A stretch of DNA of 64,000 bases from Bryobacterales bacterium KBS 96 (GTDB lineage Bacteria; Acidobacteriota; Terriglobia; Bryobacterales; Bryobacteraceae). Location of the stretch: positions 4,111,304 through 4,175,303 of the forward strand of contig KB906767.1 in assembly GCA_000381625.1 (NCBI GenBank). The letters run 5' to 3'. Below, piece after piece: positions 4,624 to 18,624 of this stretch. Position numbers and translations under genes: made by a program. The notes beneath the pieces are model-generated. The model ran no database searches, was not told the DNA's origin, and saw only the letters and a program-made list of their open reading frames with translations. How positions within the stretch are numbered: position 1 is the stretch's first letter; each line of letters starts with the position of its first letter.

Positions 4624-4968
4624 GTGACGAAGATACCTGAATACCGCGACCTGTTTCCGGGAGCACTGGAGATGATGATCCTGCAATCGCTTCGGCTGAA
4701 GCCCATGCATGGCTATGCCTTAGCGAAACACATCAAGCAGGTTTCGGACGACTTGCTGCAAATCGAGGAGGGCTCACTCTATCCAGCGCTGCAGCGCATG
4801 CTGAAGCAAGGGTGGGTTAAATCGAAGCTGGGGATCTCCGAGAAGAATCGTCCAATTCGGATTTATAGCCTCACGAATGCGGGGCTCAAGCACCTCGAGA
4901 AGGAAGTCTCCAGCTTCGAAAAGATGTTCGCCGGCATCACGCGAGTACTCGCGGCCGTTGAATCTTAG
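4624..4968 (+). CDS. PadR family transcriptional regulator
   Basis: A 114-residue winged-helix regulator of the short PadR type. Typical parts are the ALEMMILQSL helix, the MHGYALAKHI segment, the EEGSLYPALQRM recognition helix (about residues 47-60) and the wing with LTNAGLKHLEKE. The start is GTG 4624. The stop is 8 bp before the start of the large permease gene, with GGAG between, so both form one operon. In Acidobacteria PadR genes are regularly found directly upstream of this permease type. By analogy PadR should repress the pair and be released by a ligand such as a toxic compound or antibiotic; the ligand is unknown. Confidence 0.93.
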   Translation: MTKIPEYRDLFPGALEMMILQSLRLKPMHGYALAKHIKQVSDDLLQIEEGSLYPALQRMLKQGWVKSKLGISEKNRPIRIYSLTNAGLKHLEKEVSSFEKMFAGITRVLAAVES

Positions 4969-4976
4969 GAGTCCTT

Positions 4977-7628
4977 ATGGGATGGCTCAAGAACTTCCTT
5001 TCTCGCCGCGCTCGTTATACCGAGCTTGCGGAGTCGATCCGAGAACACCTTCAGGAAAAGGCAGAAGAGTTGATGGAGGACGGACTCTCGCGGGAGGAGG
5101 CCATGCACAGAGTCCGCCGTGAATTTGGCAACGCCACTCTCATTGAAGAGCGTAGCCGCGAGGTCTGGCAGTGGCCGAGAGTGGAATCAGTTTGGCGGGA
5201 TGGAAAGCATGCGGCCCGGCAATTACGGCATAGCTCTGGCTTCACAGCTACGGTAATCCTCACGCTTGCGCTTTCTATTGGCGCCAATACGGCGATCTTT
5301 TCGATTGTGGACACGCTTCTGCTGAAGAGCCTCCCGTACGCTCACCCGGAACGTTTGGCGACAATCTTTGCGCGGACTACTGGCTCTGAATCCTCCGACG
5401 CACGAAGGAACATAGACGGTGAGCAATGGGAGCTACTGCAACACGATGTGCCCTCAGTGATGCCCGCTATTTCCGCTCTACGCACCTCGGGCGTGAACCT
5501 CGAAGCCGGCTCCCATATGCAATATGTTCATGAAGGACGGGTCTCGGCACACTACTTCGACGTGCTGGCTCTCCATCCTTTTGCCGGACGCAATTTTTCG
5601 GAGGAAGAGGATCTTCCGCGCGGTCCCAGAGCGGCCATTCTGAGTTACGCTTTGTGGCGCATGGTTTTTGAAGCGAGGCGCGATGTCTTGGGACAAATTG
5701 TTCTGCTGAAAGGCGAACCGTACACGATCATAGGCGTGCTGCCCGAGAGCGCCAACACTCCCTTGAATGCCGATTTATACACTGCGCTCCAACCGAGCCG
5801 CGAAGGCGAGGGCCAGGCAACTAACTTTCAAGGGATTATGCGGCTGCGCGACGGCGCGACCTGGGAACAGGCAAATAGTGAGATCAATCGCGCTTTGGGC
5901 CAGAGCGTCCGTGCGCAACGTCTTCTGAAGACCGGCGCGCGGATAACGTATTACTCTGTACCCTTGCAAAAAGGCGAGACGAATACGCTTCGACCTGAGA
6001 TTTTGGCGCTGATGCTGGCAGCCGGCTTCATTCTGCTCATCGCTTGCGCGAACCTTGCCGGGCTGACGCTGGTGCGCATGTTGCGCCGCACGGGTGAGAT
6101 CGCCACACGACTGGCGCTGGGCGCCACGCGCTGGCAAATTCAGAGGCAGCTTTGGATCGAAAACCTGCTGCTTGCTCTGCTGGGAGGAACTGCAGCCATA
6201 GGCGTGGGCTTCGTCGCACTGCGCGGGCTGTTGCTGCTCCTGCCGGAACATTTTCTACCGGTTGCGAACGTTCCTCTTGATAGCCGCGTCTTGGGCTTCA
6301 CGCTTTCTGTGTCTCTGCTCACGAGTATCTTGTTCGGCATGTTGCCGGCGCTTACGACGGGGAAAGTCGATTTGAAATCCTCTATGGCGAGCCGCGGCGT
6401 AATAGGTGCGGGCAGCGTTCGCCTCCGGCAAGGGCTGATTGCCGGAGAAGTTGCGCTGACGGTCGTCCTGCTGGCCGCTGCCGGGTTGCTGATCCGCACG
6501 CTCATCTACCTGGAGACCATGCCCCCGGGTTTCAATCCAAACGGAGTGATCGCGGCTAAAGCATCCCTGGACGACGTCCGATACCAGGACCCGGTAGCGT
6601 TCCGAAAACTGCTCAACGAGAGCCTCGCCGCTATGCGGGAAATTCCTGGAGTGAAGAATGCCGCTGTCGGATTGGCCCTGCCGTATGAGCGTGCCCCGCT
6701 GAATTCAGTGAAACTCACCGGCGGCAAGGAGTCGGGACGGGAAATTACAACAAACGAGGTGTATGTCACGCCTGGCTATTTTGAGACCTTGCAGATCCCG
6801 GTGCTTGCAGGCCGAGCATTCACCGATGCAGACGGCCCGAATGCGCAGCCGGTTGTGATCGTCAATCAGACATTCGCACGTAAGTTCTTCCACGAGGGAA
6901 ATCCTGTGGGACGATTTCTCAACCGGGACAACAAGAACCTGTTGATCGTGGGGATTGTATCGGATACTTTGCTGTCCTCTGCCGCCCGACTGAACGAAGG
7001 CACGGCGCCGTTAACCAAACAGGAGGGCATCTATATTCCCGCTGCACAATTCGTGGATGGTAAATTTCTCTCGTTACTGAATACCTGGTTTCAGCCAAAC
7101 TGGGTTGTTCGCACTGCCGGCCCGGTCAAAGATTTGATTGCGCAGATGCAGCGCGCTCTGGCCGCCGCCGACCCGAGGCTGCCTTTTTCCGGCTTTTACT
7201 CGATGAAGGACCTTATGGCCGGGACACTCGCGATGCAAAGGATCGAGGTCGCGCTATTAGCTGCGATGGCTTCGCTTGCGCTGTTGCTCAGTGCGGTTGG
7301 TATCTTCGCACTGGTGGCGAACATTGTCGCGCAGAGGACGCGGGAGATTGGCATCCGCATTGCCCTGGGTTCCACGATTCAAAAAACGATGCTGCATATC
7401 GGGAGGTCGGGAGTAGGCGCTTCGGCTGTGGGATTAGTCGTAGGACTGATACTCTGCGCAGGCGTGCTTCGTGCTATGCGTAGCGTTCTCTACGGTGTGC
7501 ACGTGTATGATCTACCGACCATCCTGGTTGTCGTGCTAATCCTCTCTGCTGCAACGCTCCTCGCAACCACAATACCCGCCCTGAGAGTTGCACGGATCGA
7601 TGCGGCCAAGACACTGCGAGAAGAATAG
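4977..7628 (+). CDS. Acidobacterial duplicated orphan permease (ADOP), MacB/FtsX-like
   Basis: An 883-residue inner-membrane protein made of two tandem FtsX/MacB permease units. Residues 1-70 are a cytoplasmic helical domain (EHLQEKAEELMEDGLSREEA) characteristic of ADOP proteins. The first membrane segment (about 90-112, LTLALSIGANTAIFSIV) opens a MacB-type periplasmic domain. Three more helices follow around 338-440, then a second membrane segment (about 485-505), a second periplasmic domain, and three helices at about 755-870 with the RTREIGIRIALGS motif. No ATPase gene is adjacent, which is why the family is called orphan. It presumably works with a MacB/LolD-like ATPase encoded elsewhere, exporting a lipid-like or toxic substrate. 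Substrate unknown; family assignment is firm. Confidence 0.92.
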   Translation: MGWLKNFLSRRARYTELAESIREHLQEKAEELMEDGLSREEAMHRVRREFGNATLIEERSREVWQWPRVESVWRDGKHAARQLRHSSGFTATVILTLALSIGANTAIFSIVDTLLLKSLPYAHPERLATIFARTTGSESSDARRNIDGEQWELLQHDVPSVMPAISALRTSGVNLEAGSHMQYVHEGRVSAHYFDVLALHPFAGRNFSEEEDLPRGPRAAILSYALWRMVFEARRDVLGQIVLLKGEPYTIIGVLPESANTPLNADLYTALQPSREGEGQATNFQGIMRLRDGATWEQANSEINRALGQSVRAQRLLKTGARITYYSVPLQKGETNTLRPEILALMLAAGFILLIACANLAGLTLVRMLRRTGEIATRLALGATRWQIQRQLWIENLLLALLGGTAAIGVGFVALRGLLLLLPEHFLPVANVPLDSRVLGFTLSVSLLTSILFGMLPALTTGKVDLKSSMASRGVIGAGSVRLRQGLIAGEVALTVVLLAAAGLLIRTLIYLETMPPGFNPNGVIAAKASLDDVRYQDPVAFRKLLNESLAAMREIPGVKNAAVGLALPYERAPLNSVKLTGGKESGREITTNEVYVTPGYFETLQIPVLAGRAFTDADGPNAQPVVIVNQTFARKFFHEGNPVGRFLNRDNKNLLIVGIVSDTLLSSAARLNEGTAPLTKQEGIYIPAAQFVDGKFLSLLNTWFQPNWVVRTAGPVKDLIAQMQRALAAADPRLPFSGFYSMKDLMAGTLAMQRIEVALLAAMASLALLLSAVGIFALVANIVAQRTREIGIRIALGSTIQKTMLHIGRSGVGASAVGLVVGLILCAGVLRAMRSVLYGVHVYDLPTILVVVLILSAATLLATTIPALRVARIDAAKTLREE

Positions 7629-7908
7629 AAACACTGCCATGCCCAAAGCGGCTCTTAGATTAACCGGGATTCGCTAACTTCCCTCGGCCACTCGGGAAGT
7701 GTTGCCAGATGCGGCTGAAACAAGCCGCCCGGCGCGTGGCGATTTTCTATGCTTGCCACTTGGACGAAAAACGCATTAAGGTTTGTTTTGCGGAGGAGGA
7801 ATCCTCAATGTACGCGTCGCCGACAACGTGTCAACATGAATTGCTTCCGGGTGGCCACAAACCGGACGGATGCCATGGGGTGAATCATCGACCACACGGG
7901 GCCGACCG
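7629..7908. other. Convergent intergenic region with a weak terminator-like hairpin
   Basis: 280 bp between the convergent permease and sigma-factor genes. ACTTCCC (7677-7683) pairs with GGGAAGT (7694-7700) around a 10-base loop. No T-run follows, so intrinsic termination is uncertain. No gene is seen. Confidence 0.35.
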
Positions 7909-8652
7909 CTACTTCTTTGAGAGCACGGCCGCCAGAAACCGGAGCTCGGACTCCACTTCCGCAGGATCGGCGACGGTATCCGCAATTTCCTGGCGAAAGA
8001 GTTCGCGATACCTCTTCCGAAGCCGGTGAATGGCCACTTTAAGCGCCCCTTCTGAAGTGTTCATTTCGCGAGCCAGTGCAGCATAGGGCGCATCCGACTG
8101 CCCAAGCAAGAACACCTTCAGCCGCTCGAAATGCTCGGGGCGTCCATGCTGCAGGAATTCGTCCCGCAGTTTTTCCGCCACTCGGTCGAGCACTGCAAGC
8201 GCCCAGCGCCGTTCGAAGATGTGCTCTGGCGTTTCGTCGTGGGCAGGCTCGCGCCGGTAGCGCTCTTCGCCGGACGGAAATTCGAGAGGCGCCACTGCTC
8301 CACCACCGCGTTTGTGCGCGCGCCGGCGGTCTTCTTCGTCGGCCACGAAGAATTTCAAGGAAGTCAAAATAAAGGACCGGAAACGTCCCTTCTCCTGGTC
8401 AGCGCGATCGAGATATCGGCCTTCTAAGATGCGCATGAAGAAGTCCTGCGTGAGGTCCTGCGCCCGATCGGCAGGATAACCGCGCCGCCGCAGATAGGCA
8501 TACAGTGGATACCAGTAGCTCTCACACAGAGACACCAGTGCGGAGCGAGCTTCCTTCCGATGTGGATGGCCCGCAGCGACCACCAATGTCCACCGTGTGG
8601 TTGGAAATTGAGAAGATGATCCCGGCAAAGTGTGCATGGTCTGACTGTTCAT
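7909..8652 (-). CDS. ECF-type RNA polymerase sigma factor
   Basis: A 247-residue sigma-70 family protein. Region 2 is recognisable at about residues 35-105 (YWYPLYAYLRRRGY, then DRAQDLTQDFF, then the strand-opening helix around KGRFRSFILTSLKFF). Region 4 is at about 165-215 with the HTH segment ALAREMNTSEGALKVAIHRLRKRY. A long charged linker joins the two and about 30 residues extend past region 4. The usual acidic DAED patch in region 2.2, which contacts core RNA polymerase, reads RAQD here. It lies 47 bp downstream of a Ser/Thr kinase gene on the same strand, and no anti-sigma factor is nearby. In other bacteria such kinase-linked ECF sigmas are activated by phosphorylation; that mechanism is inferred here. 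Confidence 0.88.
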   Translation of the reverse strand: MNSQTMHTLPGSSSQFPTTRWTLVVAAGHPHRKEARSALVSLCESYWYPLYAYLRRRGYPADRAQDLTQDFFMRILEGRYLDRADQEKGRFRSFILTSLKFFVADEEDRRRAHKRGGGAVAPLEFPSGEERYRREPAHDETPEHIFERRWALAVLDRVAEKLRDEFLQHGRPEHFERLKVFLLGQSDAPYAALAREMNTSEGALKVAIHRLRKRYRELFRQEIADTVADPAEVESELRFLAAVLSKK

Positions 8653-8699
8653 GATCTGTTACAGAGAATAAGGAATCCGCTGCGAAGGGTTACACGCAA

Positions 8700-11600
8700 T
8701 TATTGTTGTTTCGCAGCCTCAGCGTTGGCTTCCCGGATCACTGGAATGTCGTTATCTGCATCCTTCCAAATAGCGAGAAGGCGCCCATAGGCGCCGGCCG
8801 ATTTTGCGCGATCCCCCAAAGCGGACAACGCTCTGGCCAGTTGAAGACGCGCCAGAGGTCCGATCGGATCGTTCAGCATGATGCCCGGATGATCCAGAAT
8901 GTTTTGAAATTCAGCAGCGGCCTCGCGGTGGCGGTTCATCCGGGAATAAGCGAGGCCACGCACGTAGACGGGATAGAGAGCTCCGAAGAAGGAAGCGCCC
9001 GTGAAGTATGCGCTGCCCGGAACGGCGAGGTCGTATGGAGCGGAGGCTTGCGTTATTTCGAGCGCTTTTGGTGGTTCATCCTCGTTGAGTGCTTCGAGCG
9101 CCCACAGCACAGGCAAGTAACTGAATTGGACAGACGTATCCTCCGGGTAGCGTTTTTCGAGTTCCGCCGCTATCTGTTGGGCTTCGGCGGAATCGCGCAG
9201 GAGCGCGAGCGCAAACGCAGGTCCATAATCGGCATCCCGGCTTCGGAAAAACGACAATGCCCTGGCCGCACTTGTTAGAGCCTCCGACCGGTTCCCGAAC
9301 AAGGCATTCCACACCGGCGCAACTGCTTGAAATATGGCGGCCCGCCCTACTAAGCCTCCCTGGCGAGCCAGACCTACCGCGCGTGCTGCTAGCCGATCTG
9401 CTTCTTTCAGGCGTCCTTGATACGCCAACGTCATGGCTTCCTGGTGCTCGAACCATCCTTGGGCCTCCAGTTTCGCCCGCCGTTGCGTCGCTTCTCTTTC
9501 CATGGCGGCCTTGTCGTTCCTGAGAAAAGCGACGAAGTACCGAACGAGCGAGAACTGAACGACTTCGATCCTGCGTTTCGACGCCTGGTGAAGGAGTGCC
9601 TCGGCTTCCCGCAGGCGGTTCAGGTAGAGGTAGGCGAAAGCCACGTTTTCGTAGCCGATGGCGAAATCCGGATCCAGGGCGATCGCCTTTAGACCTTCTT
9701 CCACCGCTCTGTTGTAGCGGCCAGTTCCGGACGATGTAAAGCCCGACAAGAATCCGTGCGGTAAGAGGTCCGTGGGGTATTTTCGCGTCCATGATTCCAA
9801 CGTCTGCCGGCACAGTTCCAGGTTTCTGGTTAATTGCCGGTGGTAGGTGAAAGTGATGAAGTAATTCTCCCGATCGCTGACACCATCCCGCAGTTCGTAG
9901 GCGTTGGTTACATGCTCCGCAGCAAGTTCGGTCTCCCCGAGGTCGGCATGTACACGGCCGAGGTTGGCATAAGCCATCGCAAATTTTGGGTCGAGCTCGA
10001 TGGCGCGCTTCAAGAGTGAAACGGCTTCTGCTGACTGTGCTCTCGCCTGGAACTCCCGCATTGCCGCGCTGTAGGACCTCCAGGCCTCGAGTGATGGGGT
10101 GGTTGCTTCGGCCGGGAGACTGGGCTCCTTTTCCACGCGCGGCAGCAACTCGCCAGCCCGGGTTCCGAAACGGTTCGCCATCTGGTGTAGCGCTTTGAAG
10201 ACGTCCTCTTTTTTGGCTGCTGACGCCTGCTCTTCGTTCAGAACGTCTCCGGTCCGGCAATTCCTTGCGCGCACGCCCAATACGTACTGTTTGCCAAGGC
10301 GTGCAATCCAGCCCTCCATGACTGCTGCACTGCCTGTCCGCTCGCAAATTTCGGACGCAAGATCCGGCGTGAGCTTGGCATCCGGAGCACGGAGCATCAG
10401 GCGCAGTGTTTCGCTCGCGCGCAGATCCGGAAGAACGCTGACGTACGGAGATTTGCCAAGCTCGACGGCCATCATTTGACGAAGCGTCCCGTCGAACACC
10501 GGCTCTCTCGTAGTATTCGCGAAATCCGCGAGAACAATCGTGACTTTGGTTGCCGGCCCGGGTTTCGGAAGAGAGTCGCGTTGCATAACCGGCCAGGGAG
10601 TCACTCGATCCGCTGTGCCGAAAACGGCTGCCCTGTGCCTGCGAAGAAACTTGCGCGCCCGGTAGAGCGCACCAGGCGGTGCCGCGAGCACCGGCCGGTG
10701 CTCAAGATATCTCTCAATATCGGCCGTCAACTCAGCAACTGAACGGTATCGGCGTTCCCGAAGTTTTTCCAAAGCTTTCAGCGTGATCCAGTTCAGGTCG
10801 CCATCCATCAGGCGGCGCAAGGACGCGGGATCGGTCTGCCGGTCCACGGCAATCTGACGTGCTGCCGCGCCCATTGCGTTCAGCTTGCGAGACAGCGGCG
10901 GAGCTTCTTCTTCCCGGATAATCCGGAGCATCTCGCCTAAGCCTGCCTGGCGCATTCTGGCTAGCTCGAAAGGAACAGTGCCGATCAGCAACTCGTACAA
11001 GAGCACGCCGAGCGAATACACGTCGGAGGTCTCATCGACCGCTCCGGTCATCACCTCCGCCTGCTCGGGACTGGCGTACTCCGGCGTGCCCACCATCTGG
11101 CCGAATTGTGTCAGGAGAGTGTTCTCCACAGCCCATTGATCCGTCGCTTTGGCGATGCCGAAGTCGATCACTTTTGGAAGGGGTGCGCCCTCCTGTTCCT
11201 TAACCAGCACATTCGATGGCTTGAGGTCGCGGTGGATGACACCTTTCTGGTGCGCGTGCTGGACGGCGCGGCAAACTGCGAGATAAAGTTCTAACCGTTG
11301 GCCGATTGCAACACGATGGCGGTCGCAGTACTGGGTTATGGGTACGCCTTCGATGTACTCCATGACGAAGTATGGCCTGCCCTTGAGCGTGGCGCCAGCG
11401 TCGAAGATGCGCGCGATATTCGGGTGATCCATCATCGCCAGCGTCTGACGCTCGTTGGCGAAGCGAGCCAGGACCTGGCCCGTGTCCATGCCGAGTTTGA
11501 CCACTTTGAGGGCTACCGTGCGGCGAATGGGTTCGCGCTGCTCGGCCAGGTACACGGTACCCATACCGCCTTCACCTAAAGGTCGAATGATCTGATAACG

Positions 11601-11789
11601 GCCGAAATCGTCATCGCTTGTCGGCGCCATTTCTGGATCACTGGCCTGAGTTCCGGACTCGCCGACGCGAATCGAAGTATCGAAAGCGCCCTGGATGAGA
11701 CAACCAGGGCACAATCCCACGGGATCATCGGAAACCAATTCCTCTCCGCATTGAGGGCAGTTTGGCATCTGGACAGGAGCAGCAGCCAT
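8700..11789 (-). CDS. Ser/Thr protein kinase with zinc ribbon and TPR sensor region
   Basis: A 1029-residue PknB-type kinase. Residues 11-30 hold a CxxC...CxxC zinc ribbon (C11, C14, C27, C30). The kinase domain spans about 63-385 with the glycine loop LGEGGMGTV (71-79), Lys95, HRDLKPSN (186-193), DFG (209-211) and SPE (240-242), so it should be active. Next comes a conserved region beginning near 430 (TIVLADFANTT, CERTGSAAV), and from about 590 TPR-like helical repeats. Such proteins usually have a transmembrane helix just after FLRRHRAAV; here that stretch is missing, so the protein looks cytoplasmic. I chose ATG 11789 at MAAAPVQ, before the zinc ribbon; ATG 11768 is an alternative. An ECF sigma gene follows 47 bp downstream. 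Confidence 0.92.
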   Translation of the reverse strand: MAAAPVQMPNCPQCGEELVSDDPVGLCPGCLIQGAFDTSIRVGESGTQASDPEMAPTSDDDFGRYQIIRPLGEGGMGTVYLAEQREPIRRTVALKVVKLGMDTGQVLARFANERQTLAMMDHPNIARIFDAGATLKGRPYFVMEYIEGVPITQYCDRHRVAIGQRLELYLAVCRAVQHAHQKGVIHRDLKPSNVLVKEQEGAPLPKVIDFGIAKATDQWAVENTLLTQFGQMVGTPEYASPEQAEVMTGAVDETSDVYSLGVLLYELLIGTVPFELARMRQAGLGEMLRIIREEEAPPLSRKLNAMGAAARQIAVDRQTDPASLRRLMDGDLNWITLKALEKLRERRYRSVAELTADIERYLEHRPVLAAPPGALYRARKFLRRHRAAVFGTADRVTPWPVMQRDSLPKPGPATKVTIVLADFANTTREPVFDGTLRQMMAVELGKSPYVSVLPDLRASETLRLMLRAPDAKLTPDLASEICERTGSAAVMEGWIARLGKQYVLGVRARNCRTGDVLNEEQASAAKKEDVFKALHQMANRFGTRAGELLPRVEKEPSLPAEATTPSLEAWRSYSAAMREFQARAQSAEAVSLLKRAIELDPKFAMAYANLGRVHADLGETELAAEHVTNAYELRDGVSDRENYFITFTYHRQLTRNLELCRQTLESWTRKYPTDLLPHGFLSGFTSSGTGRYNRAVEEGLKAIALDPDFAIGYENVAFAYLYLNRLREAEALLHQASKRRIEVVQFSLVRYFVAFLRNDKAAMEREATQRRAKLEAQGWFEHQEAMTLAYQGRLKEADRLAARAVGLARQGGLVGRAAIFQAVAPVWNALFGNRSEALTSAARALSFFRSRDADYGPAFALALLRDSAEAQQIAAELEKRYPEDTSVQFSYLPVLWALEALNEDEPPKALEITQASAPYDLAVPGSAYFTGASFFGALYPVYVRGLAYSRMNRHREAAAEFQNILDHPGIMLNDPIGPLARLQLARALSALGDRAKSAGAYGRLLAIWKDADNDIPVIREANAEAAKQQ

Positions 11790-11902
11790 TTTATGACTTT
11801 TATGCCAGACGCTGTAACCTCGGGCGCCGGCATTCCTTACTGGTGTCAGGTGAGCCGGATTGGAACCGGCAAACAAGATCGATTAAGACGAAGGAGAATC
11901 GC

Positions 11903-12439
11903 ATGAAACGCCTTACGAAAAGAAGCACAAACGTAGCACTGGCGTTGTGCTTGGCGGTACTCGGCATGGCAATCGAGGCGCGGGCTGACTGTCAAGACGC
12001 CCGTGGCCGAATCAGGGAGACTCAAATTCGGGCGCCAAACGATCCTATGGGGAGGACGTTATCCAATGTGGATGGCGTGCTAAACGGCGCCGGCACATCG
12101 CTGGTCACCAGCACTAATGAAGCCGCAGGTGGGGTGCTCACTGCGACATCACTCGATGTCTTCGTAACCATCCAGGGCGATTTGTTAACTGCGACTGGAG
12201 CTGTTCAGCTCACTCCCATTCCAGACAAGCCTGCGGGCGAGTTCCGGGAAAACGCGACCCTGACGATCACTGGGGGATCGGGCAAGTACGACGGAGCTAC
12301 CGGCACGATCACGCTCAAAGGACGCGCTCACAACCTCTTTGGTCCCGCCATTACGACCTTCAATGTGACTTATCAAGGTTCCGTTTGCGGTCCGAATATT
12401 AAAGAGGACGGAGACGACGACGGAGACGACAGAAACTGA
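11903..12439 (+). CDS. Small secreted protein of unknown function
   Basis: A 178-residue protein with a clear signal peptide (KRLTKRSTNVALALCLAVLG, cleavage probably after ARA near residue 27). The mature part is rich in Thr/Gly and strand-like, with a repeated pattern (TLTITGGSGKYDGATGTITLKG) reminiscent of allene-oxide-cyclase-like or dirigent-like barrels. Two cysteines sit near the start and end of the mature domain. The last ten residues are almost all acidic (DGDDDGDD), possibly binding divalent cations. ATG 11903 follows AAGGAG. It is divergent from the kinase gene with 113 bp between starts, so the two may share control. The barrel suggestion is weak; function unknown. Confidence 0.7.
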   Translation: MKRLTKRSTNVALALCLAVLGMAIEARADCQDARGRIRETQIRAPNDPMGRTLSNVDGVLNGAGTSLVTSTNEAAGGVLTATSLDVFVTIQGDLLTATGAVQLTPIPDKPAGEFRENATLTITGGSGKYDGATGTITLKGRAHNLFGPAITTFNVTYQGSVCGPNIKEDGDDDGDDRN

Positions 12440-12634
12440 ACGTTCGTCGATGGGATGCAGTGTACGGCCGGGAGTTACGTCATCGATACGAGATGTGGCG
12501 CTCGAGGGCTAATCGTCGAAGCGGCGGCGTCCGGCCGCGCTGCCGTCGCGACGGTCAGGAGGCTGCGTCGCGGCCATATTCCGCCAGGTGCCGCGTAACG
12601 CGCATACCGCGGACGCGGCGTCGCCCGAACAGGG

Positions 12635-12949
12635 TCACTTGTCTTTGAGGCTATCGCGCCAGGCCATTGCTTCTAGTTCGACTCGAATTGCGTCGGCGAC
12701 AGGAACAACGGGGCGCGCCTGGAATTCAAAAGCCGGCAGCATCGAACAGAATTTGTGAACTTCCAGCGGATCATCGCAATCCATCAACATGTACCCACCC
12801 CAATCGCCGACGCGGATGACGAACGATTCGATCTTGAAGTTGGCCGGCGCCTTCCACGGGCTGAACACTTCCAGAATTCGTTTTTGGGCATTCTCGTACT
12901 CCATAGGCGAACCTTGCGGCCGTTCGTTCCAACTGATCATGTACTTCAT
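12635..12949 (-). CDS. DUF3303 family protein
   Basis: A 104-residue soluble protein. The beginning MKYMISWNERPQGS and the middle GGYMLMDCDDPLEVHKF with a following FEFQARPV are the hallmarks of DUF3303 proteins, small alpha/beta-barrel-like proteins of unknown function. The start ATG 12949 is supported by a strong GGAGGGA site about 7 bp upstream; a longer frame upstream is non-coding in character. No operon partner: a decayed region lies upstream and a 195-bp gap downstream. Confidence 0.8.
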   Translation of the reverse strand: MKYMISWNERPQGSPMEYENAQKRILEVFSPWKAPANFKIESFVIRVGDWGGYMLMDCDDPLEVHKFCSMLPAFEFQARPVVPVADAIRVELEAMAWRDSLKDK

Positions 12950-13458
12950 CTTGGTGCTCCCTCCTGAGTTGTGGTCGTTCCACCGGCGCCGTTGCGTAGG
13001 TGCCAATGTACCGTTCAATCGTACAATTAGCGCTCAAGCATAAGTCACCCTTGTCTGTACAACGCGCTTCCCGCTATGTAGACAGGCTCGCGCTCGGCTG
13101 GCGTCCAGCACTGAACGGCAACAAACCGTCAACTGGCCTGCATGACAGTTTCCTTGAACGGCGTCTTCATGCCGGTTGACGGGTTGATCCTCGACGGATA
13201 CAACACGAAGGCCCGGGTGCTTGAAATGCTGCGTGTCGCCACCCAAGAAAATCGGGTTCAAAGTCGCCATATTCCTGCTACTTACCGGGCTATTCTGGGC
13301 GCGATGACGACTTCGGTCTCGACCTGCTCGTGAAAGACTCCAGCCGGATTCAGTCTGAGTAGCGCTTTCGTTAGCTCCGCCCTCAAACGCTATAGCATTG
13401 TTGCCGAATAATGGCTTGGCGGAACCTGATATTGAATAGATGCATCCGATGATCGAAC
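12950..13458. other. Decayed stretch, no intact gene
   Basis: About 510 bp between DUF3303 and a broken methyltransferase. Frames on the minus strand run long but lack starts, ribosome sites and motifs. Together with the adjacent pseudogene this looks like a region of gene loss. Confidence 0.45.
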
Positions 13459-13827
13459 TTATGTCTCGTGTGACAGCGCTCCGAAACTCATGAGCTGTGA
13501 AATTGGAGAAGTATTCTGAACGGACCAGCGCTGGTTCGTGTTCAGGTTCTTGTGGGTTGGATTTCGGATGCCGAGTTCGCGGCCCAAGGAATTTTGAAAC
13601 GATGTGATTTCTGGATCTGGATCGACGGCGACAACCTCTCCGACGGTGTAGGAAAGCGGGATTGCGATGGTGTCGGGACCGCATCCCAAATCCAGGACGC
13701 GCACGCCCTTGCCGAGGTTGTAACGCTCGATAATGAAATCGATCGTCGCCTGCGCATATGGCGCACGGAAACGGTGGTAATACGACGCCGTGCCGGCGAG
13801 CGGCGAGCCTTCAAGCGAAGCTGGCAT
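13459..13827 (-). pseudogene. Truncated SAM-dependent methyltransferase
   Basis: The first 70 residues are a clear class I methyltransferase N-terminus: a YYHRFRAPY leader, then motif I VLDLGCGPDT (usually GCGPG or GCGTG), then VGEVVAVDPDPE as motif II, whose acidic residue binds the ribose of SAM. After about residue 78 the sequence loses all similarity and ends at 122 residues; the family needs about 240-270. Motifs III-VI are absent, so it cannot be a functional enzyme. The downstream 400 bp is non-coding, which suggests decay or replacement of the 3' half rather than a sequencing frameshift. Confidence 0.7.
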
Positions 13828-14072
13828 TACTTAATTGCATCACCTTGGCACGTTTGAAATGGATCATGGCCGCAAGCGAAACGTCTTGCCCGGCGATGAA
13901 AATGGCGCACCATAGAGGGGCGCGCCTGCCACTTGGCCGTGTAACGCGTTAGCGTTCAATCTCAGCAACATCGACCATCCATCAAAATGGATGAAACGGA
14001 GCGGAGTCGTCGTTCGGTAACCACGTGTTCTGTCTTAAGTTAGACATTTCCGATCGTTGATAGCCTAAGCGG
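13828..14072. other. Intergenic region, nothing recognised
   Basis: About 245 bp between the broken methyltransferase and the DUF4337 gene. No gene, repeat or clear regulatory element is visible. Confidence 0.4.
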
Positions 14073-14591
14073 CTAAGCAAACCAGGCCGTCAAGGCAACG
14101 ACGAGTCCTATCACGCCAGCACTCGCTCCAATCCAAAAGAAGGAACGCATCTTCGAAAGAATCGAGAGCGACGAAAAAACGATCGCGATCTCAAGCAGAA
14201 CTTCACCCACGTGAAAACGGTTGGCGCGCCTCCCGCTACTTTCGCTTTCGGCGTGAAGCTCTTGGGCCTGCTGTTGTATTTCCCGGCGTTCCTTGTCGTA
14301 GCGCGCGCCCTCGGCCGCGTAGCGTTTCACCAGGATCGGATCAGCTTTCGAAGCCGCGAGTGTGTCGTGCGCAACCTGTGCGGAGTAACGCCGAACATCT
14401 TTCGCCTGTGAAAAGGCCCATTGGTCTGCACTCTGTTGTTCGTGGAGCAGTTCTTCGGTATTGAAGTGCTGGCCGAGAACGGAGATGATTGCGAGGAGAG
14501 CGGCAATAATCGCTATCGTGCCGGCTACGGTTCTTTCAAACGGACCATGGGCAGCGTGTACTTGCTCCTGGAGTTCTTCGTTGGCCGACAT
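14073..14591 (-). CDS. DUF4337 family membrane protein
   Basis: A 172-residue protein with a short cytosolic start (MSANEELQEQVHAAHGPFER), one membrane helix at about 22-40, a charged coiled-coil middle (about 50-125, rich in Glu/Lys/Gln with WAFSQAKDVRRY), and two more helices at about 128-170. This is the usual layout of DUF4337 proteins. Function unknown; the central coiled coil would sit on the periplasmic side if the first helix is N-in. It is monocistronic in appearance, with non-coding DNA on both sides. Confidence 0.8.
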   Translation of the reverse strand: MSANEELQEQVHAAHGPFERTVAGTIAIIAALLAIISVLGQHFNTEELLHEQQSADQWAFSQAKDVRRYSAQVAHDTLAASKADPILVKRYAAEGARYDKERREIQQQAQELHAESESSGRRANRFHVGEVLLEIAIVFSSLSILSKMRSFFWIGASAGVIGLVVALTAWFA

Positions 14592-15195
14592 GAGGATAAG
14601 CTACCATGCGTTTGCCGTGGCACCGACGGCAGGTCGGCAGGGCCCTTACCGATGCGACTCTACTTTGCCAATCAGATCGAGCTCCGCGAATTTCTTTGGA
14701 AGAAAGTGTAAGTTACCCCGCCGCGGTTCAGAGCAGCGTGAGTCTATTCTCCCCGGTAGCGCTTGAAATATAGGTAATGAGAAACACAATCTTGCTGGAC
14801 TAAAGCGTTTCGGATAGTGGCGGATCGATGCGCAAGCCGAAATGATTGTGTTCAAGTCCTCGTGAAGTGGCGCTTCATCCAAGTGAGAATCCGCTTCCCC
14901 AGGATCACAAACCTACCGGCTCAGCGTCGTGCACCCACCCGAACGACGCGAGACTATCATGTTCGTTTGTTAGGACCCGTAGGAAACCCAGATGCATACC
15001 AGGTGGATTATCGTATCGATTCCATAACAAAACGGGGATACGTTGTAACCCTGTTTTCCGTGCACTATCCGAAAGATCGGTAAACGTTGCCTGATCCGGC
15101 AAAAGTAATCTCGTCGAAAGCCGCTTCGCTTCAGTCTCAGCATAGCCGACTATACGTCCCAGTGGGAAGGATCCGCTGAGCGGGCGGCGCCGGCG
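14592..15195. other. Intergenic stretch, no supported gene
   Basis: About 600 bp. A plus-strand frame ending near 15083 has a protein-like last 40 residues (YQVDYRIDS, VVTLFSVHYPK) but no start signal or known domain. It may be the end of a lost gene. Nothing else is seen. Confidence 0.4.
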
Positions 15196-16212
15196 TCATT
15201 TGTCGACGACTTGTACTTCGGGCCAGCCTGATTTCCAGATGAGCGGCATGATGGCGAGGGTTGCTTTCCCTCCCATCCGGGTATCGCCCTCAAAATCGGA
15301 GGTGAACCAGCTTTTTCCGTCGTCGACAAGAATGCCGGCGTGACCGGGTCCAAACAGCGGTCCTTTGTTGGAAAGCAAGAGAGTGCCACCGGCTTTTAGC
15401 AGGTCGACGCCATCCTTGTCGATGTAAGGGCCCGTGATTTTACGGCTTCGTCCAACGCGAATGTTGTAGGTGCTGTTCACACCGCGGCAGCACGAGCCCC
15501 AATTGACAAAGAGATAGTAATAGCCATCGTGCTTGTAAAGGCACGACGCCTCGATTGACTTGTTGTACGCCAGAGATGAGAGCGGCGCATCCGGGTTCAA
15601 TCGCTTACCGGTCTTCGGGTCAAGTCGCACGAGCTTGATTCCGCTCCAGTAGGAGCCGAATGCAAGCCATAAAGTTCCGTTGTCATCGGAAAACACAGAG
15701 GGATCGATTGTGTTGAAGTTGCCACCCTCTCGCGATTGCACGACAATGCCGTGATCGGTCCAGTGATAGGCGGGATCGGCCGGATCGAGAGTAGGGGTAG
15801 TCGCCAGGCCGATTGCCGAAGTAATTTTGCCGAAGCTGGAGACGGAGTAGTAGAGCAGATATCGATCGCCGAGGTGGATGACATCGGGAGCCCAGTAGTT
15901 CATGTTCCGGTTGTCGGGAACGGTTGCGGCAATCCACTCGGGAGCGGTCCGGAACACTGGAGGGCCGGGTTGCCACTTCACCAGATCTTTGGAATGAAAC
16001 GAAGGAATGCCACGTCCGGTATAGAAGACCCAGAACTCGTCTTTGCACTTCACAATCGTCGAAGGGTCGCGAGTAATGATTCCCCGGCTTGCGGTTTGCT
16101 CAAGCGGCAGCCCAGCTCGTGATGCCAGGTCTGTATCCTCCGCGAACGCGATTGCCTGAAGAGATCCAGCCAGCAGGAGAGTTGAGACGACGCAGTATGA
16201 AGAGAATTTCAT
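15196..16212 (-). CDS. GH43 arabinan endo-1,5-alpha-L-arabinanase-like enzyme
   Basis: A 338-residue secreted glycoside hydrolase with a signal peptide (residues 1-24, cleavage near AFA-ED). The five-bladed propeller carries the GH43 catalytic set: Asp49 in TRDPS as general base, Asp170 in TIDPSVF as pKa modulator, and Glu221 in SIEASCLYK as general acid. Family motifs MNYWAPDV, FGSYW and GPGHAG are present. By family it cleaves alpha-1,5-L-arabinan in plant pectin side chains, though the specificity within GH43 needs a tree. It is divergent from the PQQ dehydrogenase. With the receptor and beta-helix protein further on it suggests use of plant-derived polysaccharides. Confidence 0.88.
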   Translation of the reverse strand: MKFSSYCVVSTLLLAGSLQAIAFAEDTDLASRAGLPLEQTASRGIITRDPSTIVKCKDEFWVFYTGRGIPSFHSKDLVKWQPGPPVFRTAPEWIAATVPDNRNMNYWAPDVIHLGDRYLLYYSVSSFGKITSAIGLATTPTLDPADPAYHWTDHGIVVQSREGGNFNTIDPSVFSDDNGTLWLAFGSYWSGIKLVRLDPKTGKRLNPDAPLSSLAYNKSIEASCLYKHDGYYYLFVNWGSCCRGVNSTYNIRVGRSRKITGPYIDKDGVDLLKAGGTLLLSNKGPLFGPGHAGILVDDGKSWFTSDFEGDTRMGGKATLAIMPLIWKSGWPEVQVVDK

Positions 16213-16521
16213 TGATCTAGTCTCTACCGTTATTTCCTTATGCTCGCAGACTCACTCTGCGCGGGCTTGAGTCTCAAGTCGCTTCGCCGTCCAGGTGAAA
16301 GCCGCAGATGGCATCAACGTTACGCCGGGTATGTCTTTGGAGCTGGATCGTATCTACATGCATTTCAGCGGCAGCGCGGGTGCCGCAGCGTGCGGCCGAC
16401 TCCTCTTTTTTACAATTTCCTCACACTGTTAAGTGAAACGCCTGATAAATCGGTTCGCTCCAACTCGTAGCCGCTGTTCTCCGGAACACGGCGCCAAAAC
16501 GCACTTTCCCAGTGAGGTTTT
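16213..16521. other. Divergent promoter region
   Basis: 309 bp between the divergent GH43 and PQQ dehydrogenase genes. It must hold both promoters, but no strong consensus boxes or symmetrical operator could be singled out. Confidence 0.4.
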
Positions 16522-18624
16522 ATGGAATTTCTGCGTAACAAAACGATTTTGCTTCTAATTTCCTTCCTGTTCGTAGGCATCGCGTCCATCCGTCCTGCTA
16601 GCGTCACCAGGTCGGACTGGCCCTCGTACAGCAATGATCCCGGCGCAATGCGCTACGCCAATCTCAACCAGATCAACAGGACCAATGTGTCCTCGTTAAC
16701 GCCCGCGTGGATATTTCACACCACAGTCATGAATCCGAGCACCTCCTTCGAATCGCAGCCGATTGTGGTCAACAACACGATGTACGTCACCTCGCCGCAT
16801 GGGCACGTGTTTGCACTTGATCCTTCCAGCGGCGCACTGAAGTGGACTTTCAATCCGGATATTCCGCCCCTTTCGGATCTCGCGGTCTGCTGCGGGCAGA
16901 CGAATCGCGGCGTGGCTGTCGGCGACGGGAAGGTGTTCGTGGGACAACTTGATGCGTCGCTGGTTGCGCTAGATGCCAACTCGGGCAAGGTGCTCTGGAA
17001 GGTCAAGGTGGACGATTACCACCGCCATTGGACCGAAACGATGGCGCCTCTGTTTGTGAACGGCAAAGTGATCATCGGAGCCTCCGGCGGCGAGTTTCAG
17101 CTTCGCGGCCACGTCTCTGCATATGACTCGGCTACCGGCAAATTAGTATGGCGATTCTACACGGTTCCAGGCCCGGGCCAGAAGGGCAACGATACCTGGG
17201 CGGGCAACTCGTGGAGGAGGGGGGGCGCGACAGTGTGGACCACGCCGGCGGTGGATCCGCATCTCGGCCTGCTTTACATCACCACCAGCAACGCCGCACC
17301 CGATCTGAACGGCTCTGCACGAGCCGGCAACAACCTGTTTACCGCTTCCGTGGTAGCCCTGGATGTGAATACGGGCGCCTACAAGTGGCACTTCCAGGAG
17401 GTCCACCACGATCTATGGGATTACGACGCGACCCAACCGGTCCACTTGTTCACGGCCACGAAAAACGGCCAGCAAGTTCCCGCCCTCGCGCACGCAAATA
17501 AGAATGGAAATTACTTCATTCTCGACCGCCGCGACGGAACGCCGATCTTCGACGTCACCGAAACCAAGGTCCCGACCGATCCGGACTGGCAGCATCCTTC
17601 ACCCACGCAGCCCATGCCAGCCACCGATCCTCTGATCCCGCAATCGGTTGAAACGCCTGTCCTTGGCGTCACCCCGGCTGATTTCTGGACGCCTCCCCAA
17701 GAGCAAACCCTTCTCATCCAGCCAGGTTTCGAAAGCGGACCCGAATACGCGCCCAGCGCTTTCAGCCCTCGCACAAAGTACGCCTATATCAATGCCGGCG
17801 GGTACGATCCGTGGACCATCCGCTCCAGTCCCACACTGTTCAACAGTCTCGGGTCTAGTGGGAATGGCAACATCAAGGGCGTGCAGGGCTTCGGATTGCT
17901 GGATGCAGTGGACACCACCACGGGCAAAATCGTCTGGAAAATCCAGACGCCCGAAAAGCTCGTCTCCGCCGTCACTGTCGCGGGTGACCTGGTTTTCTTC
18001 GGCGAAGGCAACGGCACGTTCAACGCCGTGGACGCGAAGAGCGGCACTAAGCTATGGTCCTTCAAAAGCACGGAACCAGGCGTCGGCGGAGCTAACGGTA
18101 ACTCCGCAGCCTATGTCGTCAATGGGCGCGAGTTCATCGTCATGGGATTCGGCGGGAACGCCCGCGAGCGTGGCGATGGTGCGACCTCGCCCGTCGGCGA
18201 TGCGCTGATCGCGTTCTCGCTGCCGACTAGTAACAACGAACCGGCCGTCGTAACGGCGAGCCCGAAACAGGTCGATACTGGCGCGATTCCACCATCAAAT
18301 CTGATTCCTCCCGCGACCTCCGCGCCGCCCGGCGCCACCGTCGTTACTCTGAACACGCATGACCTTATCTTTAAACCCAATCGATTTACCGTGAAGGCCG
18401 GTCAAAAGGTCGCGGTGCACATCTTGAACTCCGGAGATTCTGACATGAATTTCGCGGTCCAGTTGCCAAATGGAACGTTCGGACTCAAAAGCGAGGTTAA
18501 GGCCGGCACGGACGCCTTTTTCGTTTTCACCGCGCCCTCGCGACCCGGGGAATTCAAGTTTTTCAACCCCGATTCCCCAGTACGATTCTTCGGCAAAGAT
18601 GGCACGATTCATGTGACATCTTAA
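16522..18624 (+). CDS. Secreted PQQ-dependent dehydrogenase with C-terminal cupredoxin-like domain
   Basis: A 700-residue exported quinoprotein. A signal peptide or anchor covers residues 8-26. The eight-bladed propeller (about 30-575) has the PQQ-binding features of quinoprotein alcohol/glucose dehydrogenases: the adjacent cysteine pair at 123-124 (AVCCG), GASGGEF, the WTTPAVDP blade and WDYDATQPVH with the likely catalytic Asp. Tryptophan-docking repeats such as TGKLVWRFY recur. A linker leads to a cupredoxin-like beta-sandwich (about 608-700). In that domain the usual copper ligands are not seen: MNF stands where HNF is expected, and no Cys/His pair follows near the C-terminus. The physiological substrate and electron acceptor are unknown; no cytochrome c gene is adjacent. 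Confidence 0.87.
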   Translation: MEFLRNKTILLLISFLFVGIASIRPASVTRSDWPSYSNDPGAMRYANLNQINRTNVSSLTPAWIFHTTVMNPSTSFESQPIVVNNTMYVTSPHGHVFALDPSSGALKWTFNPDIPPLSDLAVCCGQTNRGVAVGDGKVFVGQLDASLVALDANSGKVLWKVKVDDYHRHWTETMAPLFVNGKVIIGASGGEFQLRGHVSAYDSATGKLVWRFYTVPGPGQKGNDTWAGNSWRRGGATVWTTPAVDPHLGLLYITTSNAAPDLNGSARAGNNLFTASVVALDVNTGAYKWHFQEVHHDLWDYDATQPVHLFTATKNGQQVPALAHANKNGNYFILDRRDGTPIFDVTETKVPTDPDWQHPSPTQPMPATDPLIPQSVETPVLGVTPADFWTPPQEQTLLIQPGFESGPEYAPSAFSPRTKYAYINAGGYDPWTIRSSPTLFNSLGSSGNGNIKGVQGFGLLDAVDTTTGKIVWKIQTPEKLVSAVTVAGDLVFFGEGNGTFNAVDAKSGTKLWSFKSTEPGVGGANGNSAAYVVNGREFIVMGFGGNARERGDGATSPVGDALIAFSLPTSNNEPAVVTASPKQVDTGAIPPSNLIPPATSAPPGATVVTLNTHDLIFKPNRFTVKAGQKVAVHILNSGDSDMNFAVQLPNGTFGLKSEVKAGTDAFFVFTAPSRPGEFKFFNPDSPVRFFGKDGTIHVTS

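Follow-up and report, generated by a model that had tools for sequence, protein, structure and literature searches.

Background

Two sigma factors of the extracytoplasmic function (ECF) group ECF43 have been described as partners of Ser/Thr kinases. In EcfP of Vibrio parahaemolyticus, encoded with the kinase PknT, STTA replaces DAED and is phosphorylated there on Thr (PMC8999054); EcfK of Xanthomonas citri, encoded with PknS, has QATE (T51) and is in addition controlled through T106 of its linker (PMC13147305). Groups ECF59, 61, 62, 217 and 283 are linked to kinases by gene neighbourhood, usually without an anti-sigma factor, and four of the five examples listed are planctomycetes (PMC8999054). 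Two reviews differ on whether the kinase-linked groups beyond ECF43 keep the acidic motif: in one, a DAED-like motif is kept, these groups may work differently, and Ser/Thr lies in or near the motif in some (PMC8999054); in the other, uncharged residues take the place of the motif, and ECF59 has a phosphorylated Ser (PMC8103513). Described below is a kinase and ECF sigma factor gene pair at positions 7,909 to 11,789 of a 64,000-nucleotide stretch of the soil organism Bryobacterales bacterium KBS 96 (contig KB906767.1, 4,111,304 to 4,175,303), this whole stretch being called the window, together with a promoter-like element that flanks the kinase gene in two copies.

The locus is read, with a probability of roughly 0.6, as a self-contained cassette in which the kinase would act on the sigma factor, and the sigma factor on its own gene and on a divergent gene for an exported protein. 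Judged by titles and abstract openings, searches of the open-access literature turned up no description of the promoters, outputs or membrane loss of such a cassette, nor of a target promoter or output gene for ECF59, 61, 62, 217 or 283; the part used of the Solibacter genome paper mentions many kinases and ECF sigma factors and notes no pairing (PMC3174227). As far as that literature goes, four things are new: the lineage with a soluble kinase, the paired inverted elements, the exported-looking outputs and the mosaic composition.

Sequences and comparison sets

The source genome comprises 6.69 Mb in two contigs and is 96.7% complete. A scan of genome contigs with the sigma factor gave at least 542 confirmed relatives, and the best 79 loci, labelled mostly Acidobacteriota, Planctomycetota and Verrucomicrobiota, were kept for analysis; among these best 79 the nearest named relatives of the sigma gene were Bryobacterales/Acidobacteriota. 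The sigma alignment had 80 rows, 16 from the close clade and 64 others. The element census covered 48 genomes, 24 carriers and 24 non-carriers, with carrier and control totals summed by hand. Hydropathy was taken as the Kyte-Doolittle mean over 19 residues. At the family level, 46 of 237 genomes had a sigma match at 1e-60 or better; the one other genome of the genus, 88% complete, had none at that threshold. Plasmid records searched with the sigma factor gave no match, and plasmid carriage is not supported.

Pairing of kinase and sigma factor

The two genes adjoin on the minus strand, kinase first, across a 47-nt gap (8653-8699), as the first-pass annotation had described. That annotation proposed testing whether the pair is conserved, and conservation was seen across phyla: a Ser/Thr kinase frame lies on the same strand within 1.2 kb of the sigma gene in 67 of the 79 loci (kinase-sigma in 20, sigma-kinase in 47), the other 12 having the kinase on the opposite strand (2), a limiting contig end (9) or no kinase (1). 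Gene neighbourhood places the sigma factor in a kinase-linked family, and the pairing is of an already known kind; its earlier presentation as an independent example was misleading, since kinase-linked ECF groups are already catalogued (PMC8999054). The remark that no anti-sigma gene is present was borne out in the seven flanking genes (4624-18621), where no anti-sigma domain was found in a scan confined to the window and not extended to the loci of relatives. One record, labelled Akkermansia muciniphila (L107), has a sigma relative and no kinase in 14.7 kb.

The sigma factor contains sigma2 and sigma4 only, the architecture of an ECF factor. Pfam placed Sigma70_r2 and then Sigma70_r4_2 on the protein, both slightly below cut-off (r2 passed the cut-off in the genome search, at 25.5 bits), and TIGR02937 matched at E 6e-9, also below cut-off. 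A model built with AlphaFold from 64 sequences had a mean predicted local distance difference test score (pLDDT) of 83.6, and a Foldseek search with it returned sigma factors, mostly ECF, at the top of the list (best E 0.016, with low template modelling scores). The C-terminal extension reported earlier is real: it is modelled beyond region 4 as a helix at residues 230-245 and is common to the family, with T226 in 76 of 78 sequences and E236 invariant in 64 of 64. Features of the locus are collected in Table 1.

Table 1. Features of the kinase-sigma locus, in window positions.
Feature	Positions	Strand	Remarks
ECF sigma factor, 247 aa	8652-7909	-	sigma2, sigma4 and family-wide C-terminal helix; RAQD at residues 63-66
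Promoter-like TGTAAC-N14-TCCTTA	8694-8669	-	faces sigma gene, whose ATG is 16 nt away; inside the 47-nt gap
Hanks-type Ser/Thr kinase, 1029 aa	11789-8700	-	Pkinase E 5e-42 (Pfam)
Helix-less linker of kinase	10585-10640 (approximate)	-	24 nt deleted in frame compared with helix-bearing kinases (DNA alignment)
TAAAAT, housekeeping-type -10-like, for kinase	11793-11788	-	19 nt from inner edge of the GTTACA/TGTAAC element
Promoter-like TGTAAC-N15-TCCTTA	11813-11839	+	faces divergent exported-protein gene
Divergent gene, 178 aa	11903-12439	+	signal-peptide-like N-terminus; presumed output

Inverted promoter-like elements

An alignment of the regions upstream of 19 close-clade kinases (L179 left out) contained one strongly conserved block, the reverse complement of which is TGTAAC-N14/15-TCCTTA. 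The two copies in the window lie one on each side of the kinase gene, in opposite orientation. Both copies are present in 20 of 27 close-clade loci, in four of which one copy differs by a single base; six loci have the sigma-side copy only (five at contig ends, and L185, where the kinase is interrupted) and L186 has none. Where a copy goes with a gene in these loci, it stands 10-77 nt before the start codon. In shuffled window sequence the element occurred at a mean of 0.01 matches. Over the census the exact pattern had 63 matches in the carriers (43 for the backwards control) and 7 in the non-carriers (control 21), and a strict form, a filter picked after the sites were known, had 52 sites in 23 of the 24 carriers and none in the 24 non-carriers. 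At greater distance, TGTAAC alone lies within 200 nt upstream of 6 of 64 sigma genes (L066 included; 1.2 expected, and 3 of 64 on the opposite strand), and a related two-part pattern, drawn after the hits were known, lies upstream of the sigma gene in 4 of 63 loci (0.07 expected). The kinase frames of L185 and L189 are interrupted and their sigma-side element is retained.

The block could also be read on the kinase strand, with TAAGGA as the -35 and GTTACA as the -10 of a kinase-sigma operon. This was rejected: the second copy would then face away from the sigma gene, and the opposite reading is preferred because both copies then face start codons. A TANAAT sequence stands on the kinase strand at 17-20 nt from the element in 17 of 20 close-clade kinase-side sites and in none of 17 sigma-side sites, so that a separate promoter of housekeeping type is probable for the kinase. 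The description of the pair as one transcription unit is thus too simple; the shared strand and short gap stand, and the gap holds a promoter-like element facing the sigma gene while the kinase has a TANAAT of its own.

The elements might instead be binding sites of another regulator, or recombination sites at which sensor and output parts are exchanged. The inverted pair does flank the kinase gene, flanking genes differ between genomes, and trees of the sensor and kinase domain disagree, all of which would suit such sites; the constant placement shortly before start codons argues the other way, as does the similar element upstream of sigma in the four distant loci, and extra copies before exported-protein genes with no kinase nearby fit promoters better. 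This alternative is therefore given a small chance, and a promoter function of the elements is preferred.

Genes for apparently exported proteins behind the element

For the 178-aa protein of the divergent gene, Pfam gave no convincing family (an AOC_like match, E 0.021, fell short of the family cut-off and was not used). All 29 non-sigma genes first gathered behind the element encode proteins that look exported, with a basic and then hydrophobic N-terminus and an AXA-like site; by a similar rule, 168 of 520 background frames do so. The 29 comprise 20 genes beside close-clade kinases and nine from further element sites chosen by likeness. They fall into five sequence clusters, the window's protein clustering with four others, and are non-independent, several coming from one genome and two being near-identical copies. 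At L269:6330 and L272:4873 the element precedes exported-protein genes and no kinase is present on the same stretch. At L270:796 and 2823 (G201), two successive exported-protein genes lie beside a kinase gene with one element each, a larger local regulon.

Region 2.2 of the sigma factor

Residues 63-66 do read RAQD, as noted in the first pass. This tetrad occurs in 1 of the 80 sigma factors, that of the window, and is ruled out as a hallmark of kinase-linked sigma factors; it is the extreme end of a trend in tetrad composition. Outside the close clade DAQD is commonest (26 of 64), and within it QAQD accounts for 13 of 16, the remainder being EAQD, KAQD and RAQD. Counted as acids minus bases, the close clade has +1 in 13 of 16, 0 in two (the window among them) and +2 in one, against +2 or +3 in 51 of the 64 others. 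The source genome has 40 sigma matches including the window's; 30 others had DNA, and among the 21 readable tetrads, inspected by eye, none begins with a basic residue and a single one, AALD, has neither of the two acids concerned. The weakened patch is thus genuine and specific to this lineage.

The earlier proposal was that phosphorylation supplies the missing charge, as in EcfP. Within the tetrad this is not supported, because none of the 16 close-clade sigma factors has Ser or Thr at residues 63-66 (7 of 80 overall), and D66 is retained in 79 of 80. The suggested check for Ser/Thr near region 2.2 came out differently just outside it: T68, in the adjoining DLTQ stretch, is Thr in 69 of 80. 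A form of the EcfP/PknT scheme could be kept in which a phosphorylated residue within or beside region 2.2, for instance T68, makes up for the negative charge missing from RAQD and permits binding of core RNA polymerase. The lowered acidity of the close clade and the position of T68 speak for it, as does the phosphorylated Ser reported for ECF59 (PMC8103513). T68 is, however, frequent as well beside more acidic tetrads with the same kind of kinase neighbour, and together with the empty tetrad and the retained D66 this makes the scheme unlikely.

Loss of the membrane helix in the kinase

The kinase has a Cys-rich N-terminus (CPQC..CPGC), a kinase domain at about 65-281, a helix-free linker and a C-terminal region, the presumed sensor, in which Pfam placed tetratricopeptide repeats (TPR). 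Its sequence holds VALKVVK, IHRDLKPSN and IDFGIAK, which we take to be the catalytic Lys, HRD and DFG motifs. Because the conserved TAAAAT overlaps the ATG at 11789, the start codon may be the ATG at 11768 instead. No strongly hydrophobic stretch was found in the window kinase, the maximum 19-residue mean being 1.48, within the kinase-domain part.

A membrane-helix-like stretch, with a 19-residue mean of 1.67-2.50, directly follows the kinase domain in 20 of 22 close-clade kinases (window included in the count). The exceptions are the window, with a linker hydropathy of -0.13, and L191, with 0.81, each lacking 24 nt at overlapping places. In the tree of the sensor region these two are sisters (support 100/99), so that a single change is enough for the loss. 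The sensor of L191 is 79% identical to that of the window; six kinases reach 68-72%, most of the rest 44-49%, and two 35%. Kinase-domain identity is 65-87%. The ratio of non-synonymous to synonymous substitution rates (dN/dS) between window and L191 is 0.14 in the kinase domain, 0.51 in the linker, 0.23 in the sensor and 0.13 in the sigma factor (over 129 residues); between the window and five helix-bearing relatives the corresponding ranges are 0.09-0.13, 0.28-0.49, 0.21-0.26 and 0.08-0.17. The first-pass description of the kinase as soluble agrees with these data: the protein is probably cytoplasmic, and the soluble form is a derived state that has been kept under purifying selection. If window and L191 inherited the loss from a common ancestor, the sequence stayed under constraint afterwards, and this speaks for a soluble kinase that works.

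Decay of the kinase, leaving a pair that no longer works as a switch in this genome, would account for the loss of a part kept by nearly all close-clade kinases, for the fast-evolving linker of window and L191 and for the interrupted kinase frames of the relatives L185 and L189. Set against it are a frame that stays open over 1029 codons and contains the catalytic motifs, dN/dS values that are low between the helix-less pair and close to those between window and helix-bearing relatives, and two intact elements. Decay is accordingly judged quite improbable, and a functioning soluble kinase is preferred. A soluble kinase is not unusual in itself: 7 of 15 kinases of the source genome, the window's included, have no helix in the stretch examined (four of the seven being incomplete). 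A second kinase of that genome (G000:C1:491005-492051), with 54% identity in the kinase domain, retains a membrane-helix-like stretch.

Flanking genes

When ten window proteins were compared with 19 close loci, the sigma factor and kinase matched in 19 of 19, the PadR and MacB proteins matched weakly in one, and the remaining six had no match at 1e-10; flanking genes thus vary between genomes. A gene for a PadR-type regulator and, behind it, one for a MacB/FtsX-type permease occupy 4624-7628, oriented towards the sigma gene. On the minus strand at 13462-13827 a short open frame has a partial, below-threshold match to a methyltransferase and is a possible gene remnant.

Proposed mechanism

In the cassette as proposed, the Hanks-type kinase would be made from its own housekeeping-type promoter, would sense a signal through its TPR region and, with no anti-sigma factor present, would activate the sigma factor. 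The sigma factor would recognise TGTAAC-N14/15-TCCTTA and transcribe its own gene, giving positive feedback, and the one divergent exported-protein gene. Activation would probably go through a phosphorylated Ser or Thr outside the region 2.2 tetrad. Strongly conserved positions of this kind are T19 (80 of 80), S/T22 (80 of 80), T141 (Ser or Thr in 77 of 79) and T226; T18 of the FPTT stretch, which also contains T19, is highly conserved as well. As a first guess, Thr141 in the sigma2-sigma4 linker may be the site, by analogy with T106 of EcfK. With the helix lost, the sensor region would respond to a signal from the cytoplasm, whereas in relatives an extracytoplasmic position is expected for it.

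Several points weigh against this reading. T19 and T141 directly precede predicted helices in the sigma model, so that their conservation may be structural capping, and for that reason none of T18/T19, S/T22, T141 and T226 is claimed as a phosphosite; the action of the kinase on the sigma factor is itself something that we infer indirectly. The exact matches in the source genome are the two described, a count unremarkable beside the single match of the backwards control, so that position and conservation rather than number carry the case; with up to two mismatches nothing further rose above control in that genome (3 against 10; 3 against 4). Before the post hoc strict filter the carrier total was not far above its control, and few distant loci have the element upstream of sigma. 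A single-sequence structure model of the 178-aa protein reached a pLDDT of 48. Fifteen further matches in carriers include ten inside frames of 150 aa or more; the other five lie before a signal-peptide-like protein (L288), a doubtful frame (L296), nothing (L297) and a non-exported gene (L293 and L295). The last two, L293:2067 and L295:2053, are orthologous strict-form sites in related genomes, each standing 26 nt ahead of a frame of 120 aa that lacks a signal peptide, and with two sites inside frames they make up the four strict-form sites among the fifteen. They rule out the statement that every element copy drives an exported protein. The pattern alone is thus no proof of an exported output; the rule holds for cassette-type sites, which are themselves unaffected by these exceptions. 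Lastly, window and L191 are not sisters in the weakly supported kinase-domain tree, which needs two changes for the helix loss; the differing trees point to recombination between parts.

A wider reading is offered tentatively and is somewhat doubtful: that Bryobacteraceae carry exchangeable signal-to-secretion cassettes, in which kinase domain, sigma factor and inverted promoter pair are kept and sensor and output are swapped; that a helix deletion in one lineage turned sensing from outside to inside; and that its sigma factor gave up most of its acids in region 2.2 and acquired no phosphosite in that place. If true, it would mean control of a sigma factor by a kinase in a way other than that of EcfP.

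Comparison with known systems

This family of kinase-linked sigma factors is widespread, with at least 542 relatives. From the locus the family gains a specific candidate promoter, a candidate regulon of two sites from a genome that is nearly complete, and a naturally soluble kinase that should purify more easily than a membrane receptor, and how a kinase controls a sigma factor lacking a region 2.2 phosphosite is now a directly testable question. Like EcfP/PknT and EcfK/PknS, the window pair consists of an ECF sigma factor encoded beside a Hanks-type kinase, and PknS, like the window kinase, has TPR repeats (PMC8999054, PMC13147305). PknS is a membrane receptor, whereas the window kinase has no membrane helix; activation of the sigma factor by the kinase is established in the Vibrio and Xanthomonas systems, which belong to different phyla from the window pair, and is proposed for the latter. 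The adjacent kinase is also shared with ECF59, 61, 62, 217 and 283, a likeness by gene neighbourhood (PMC8999054). In the worked-out cases, those of ECF43, a Thr of the region 2.2 motif is phosphorylated; the window sigma factor has RAQD, with no Thr in the tetrad, and its family keeps the kinase neighbour without that Thr.

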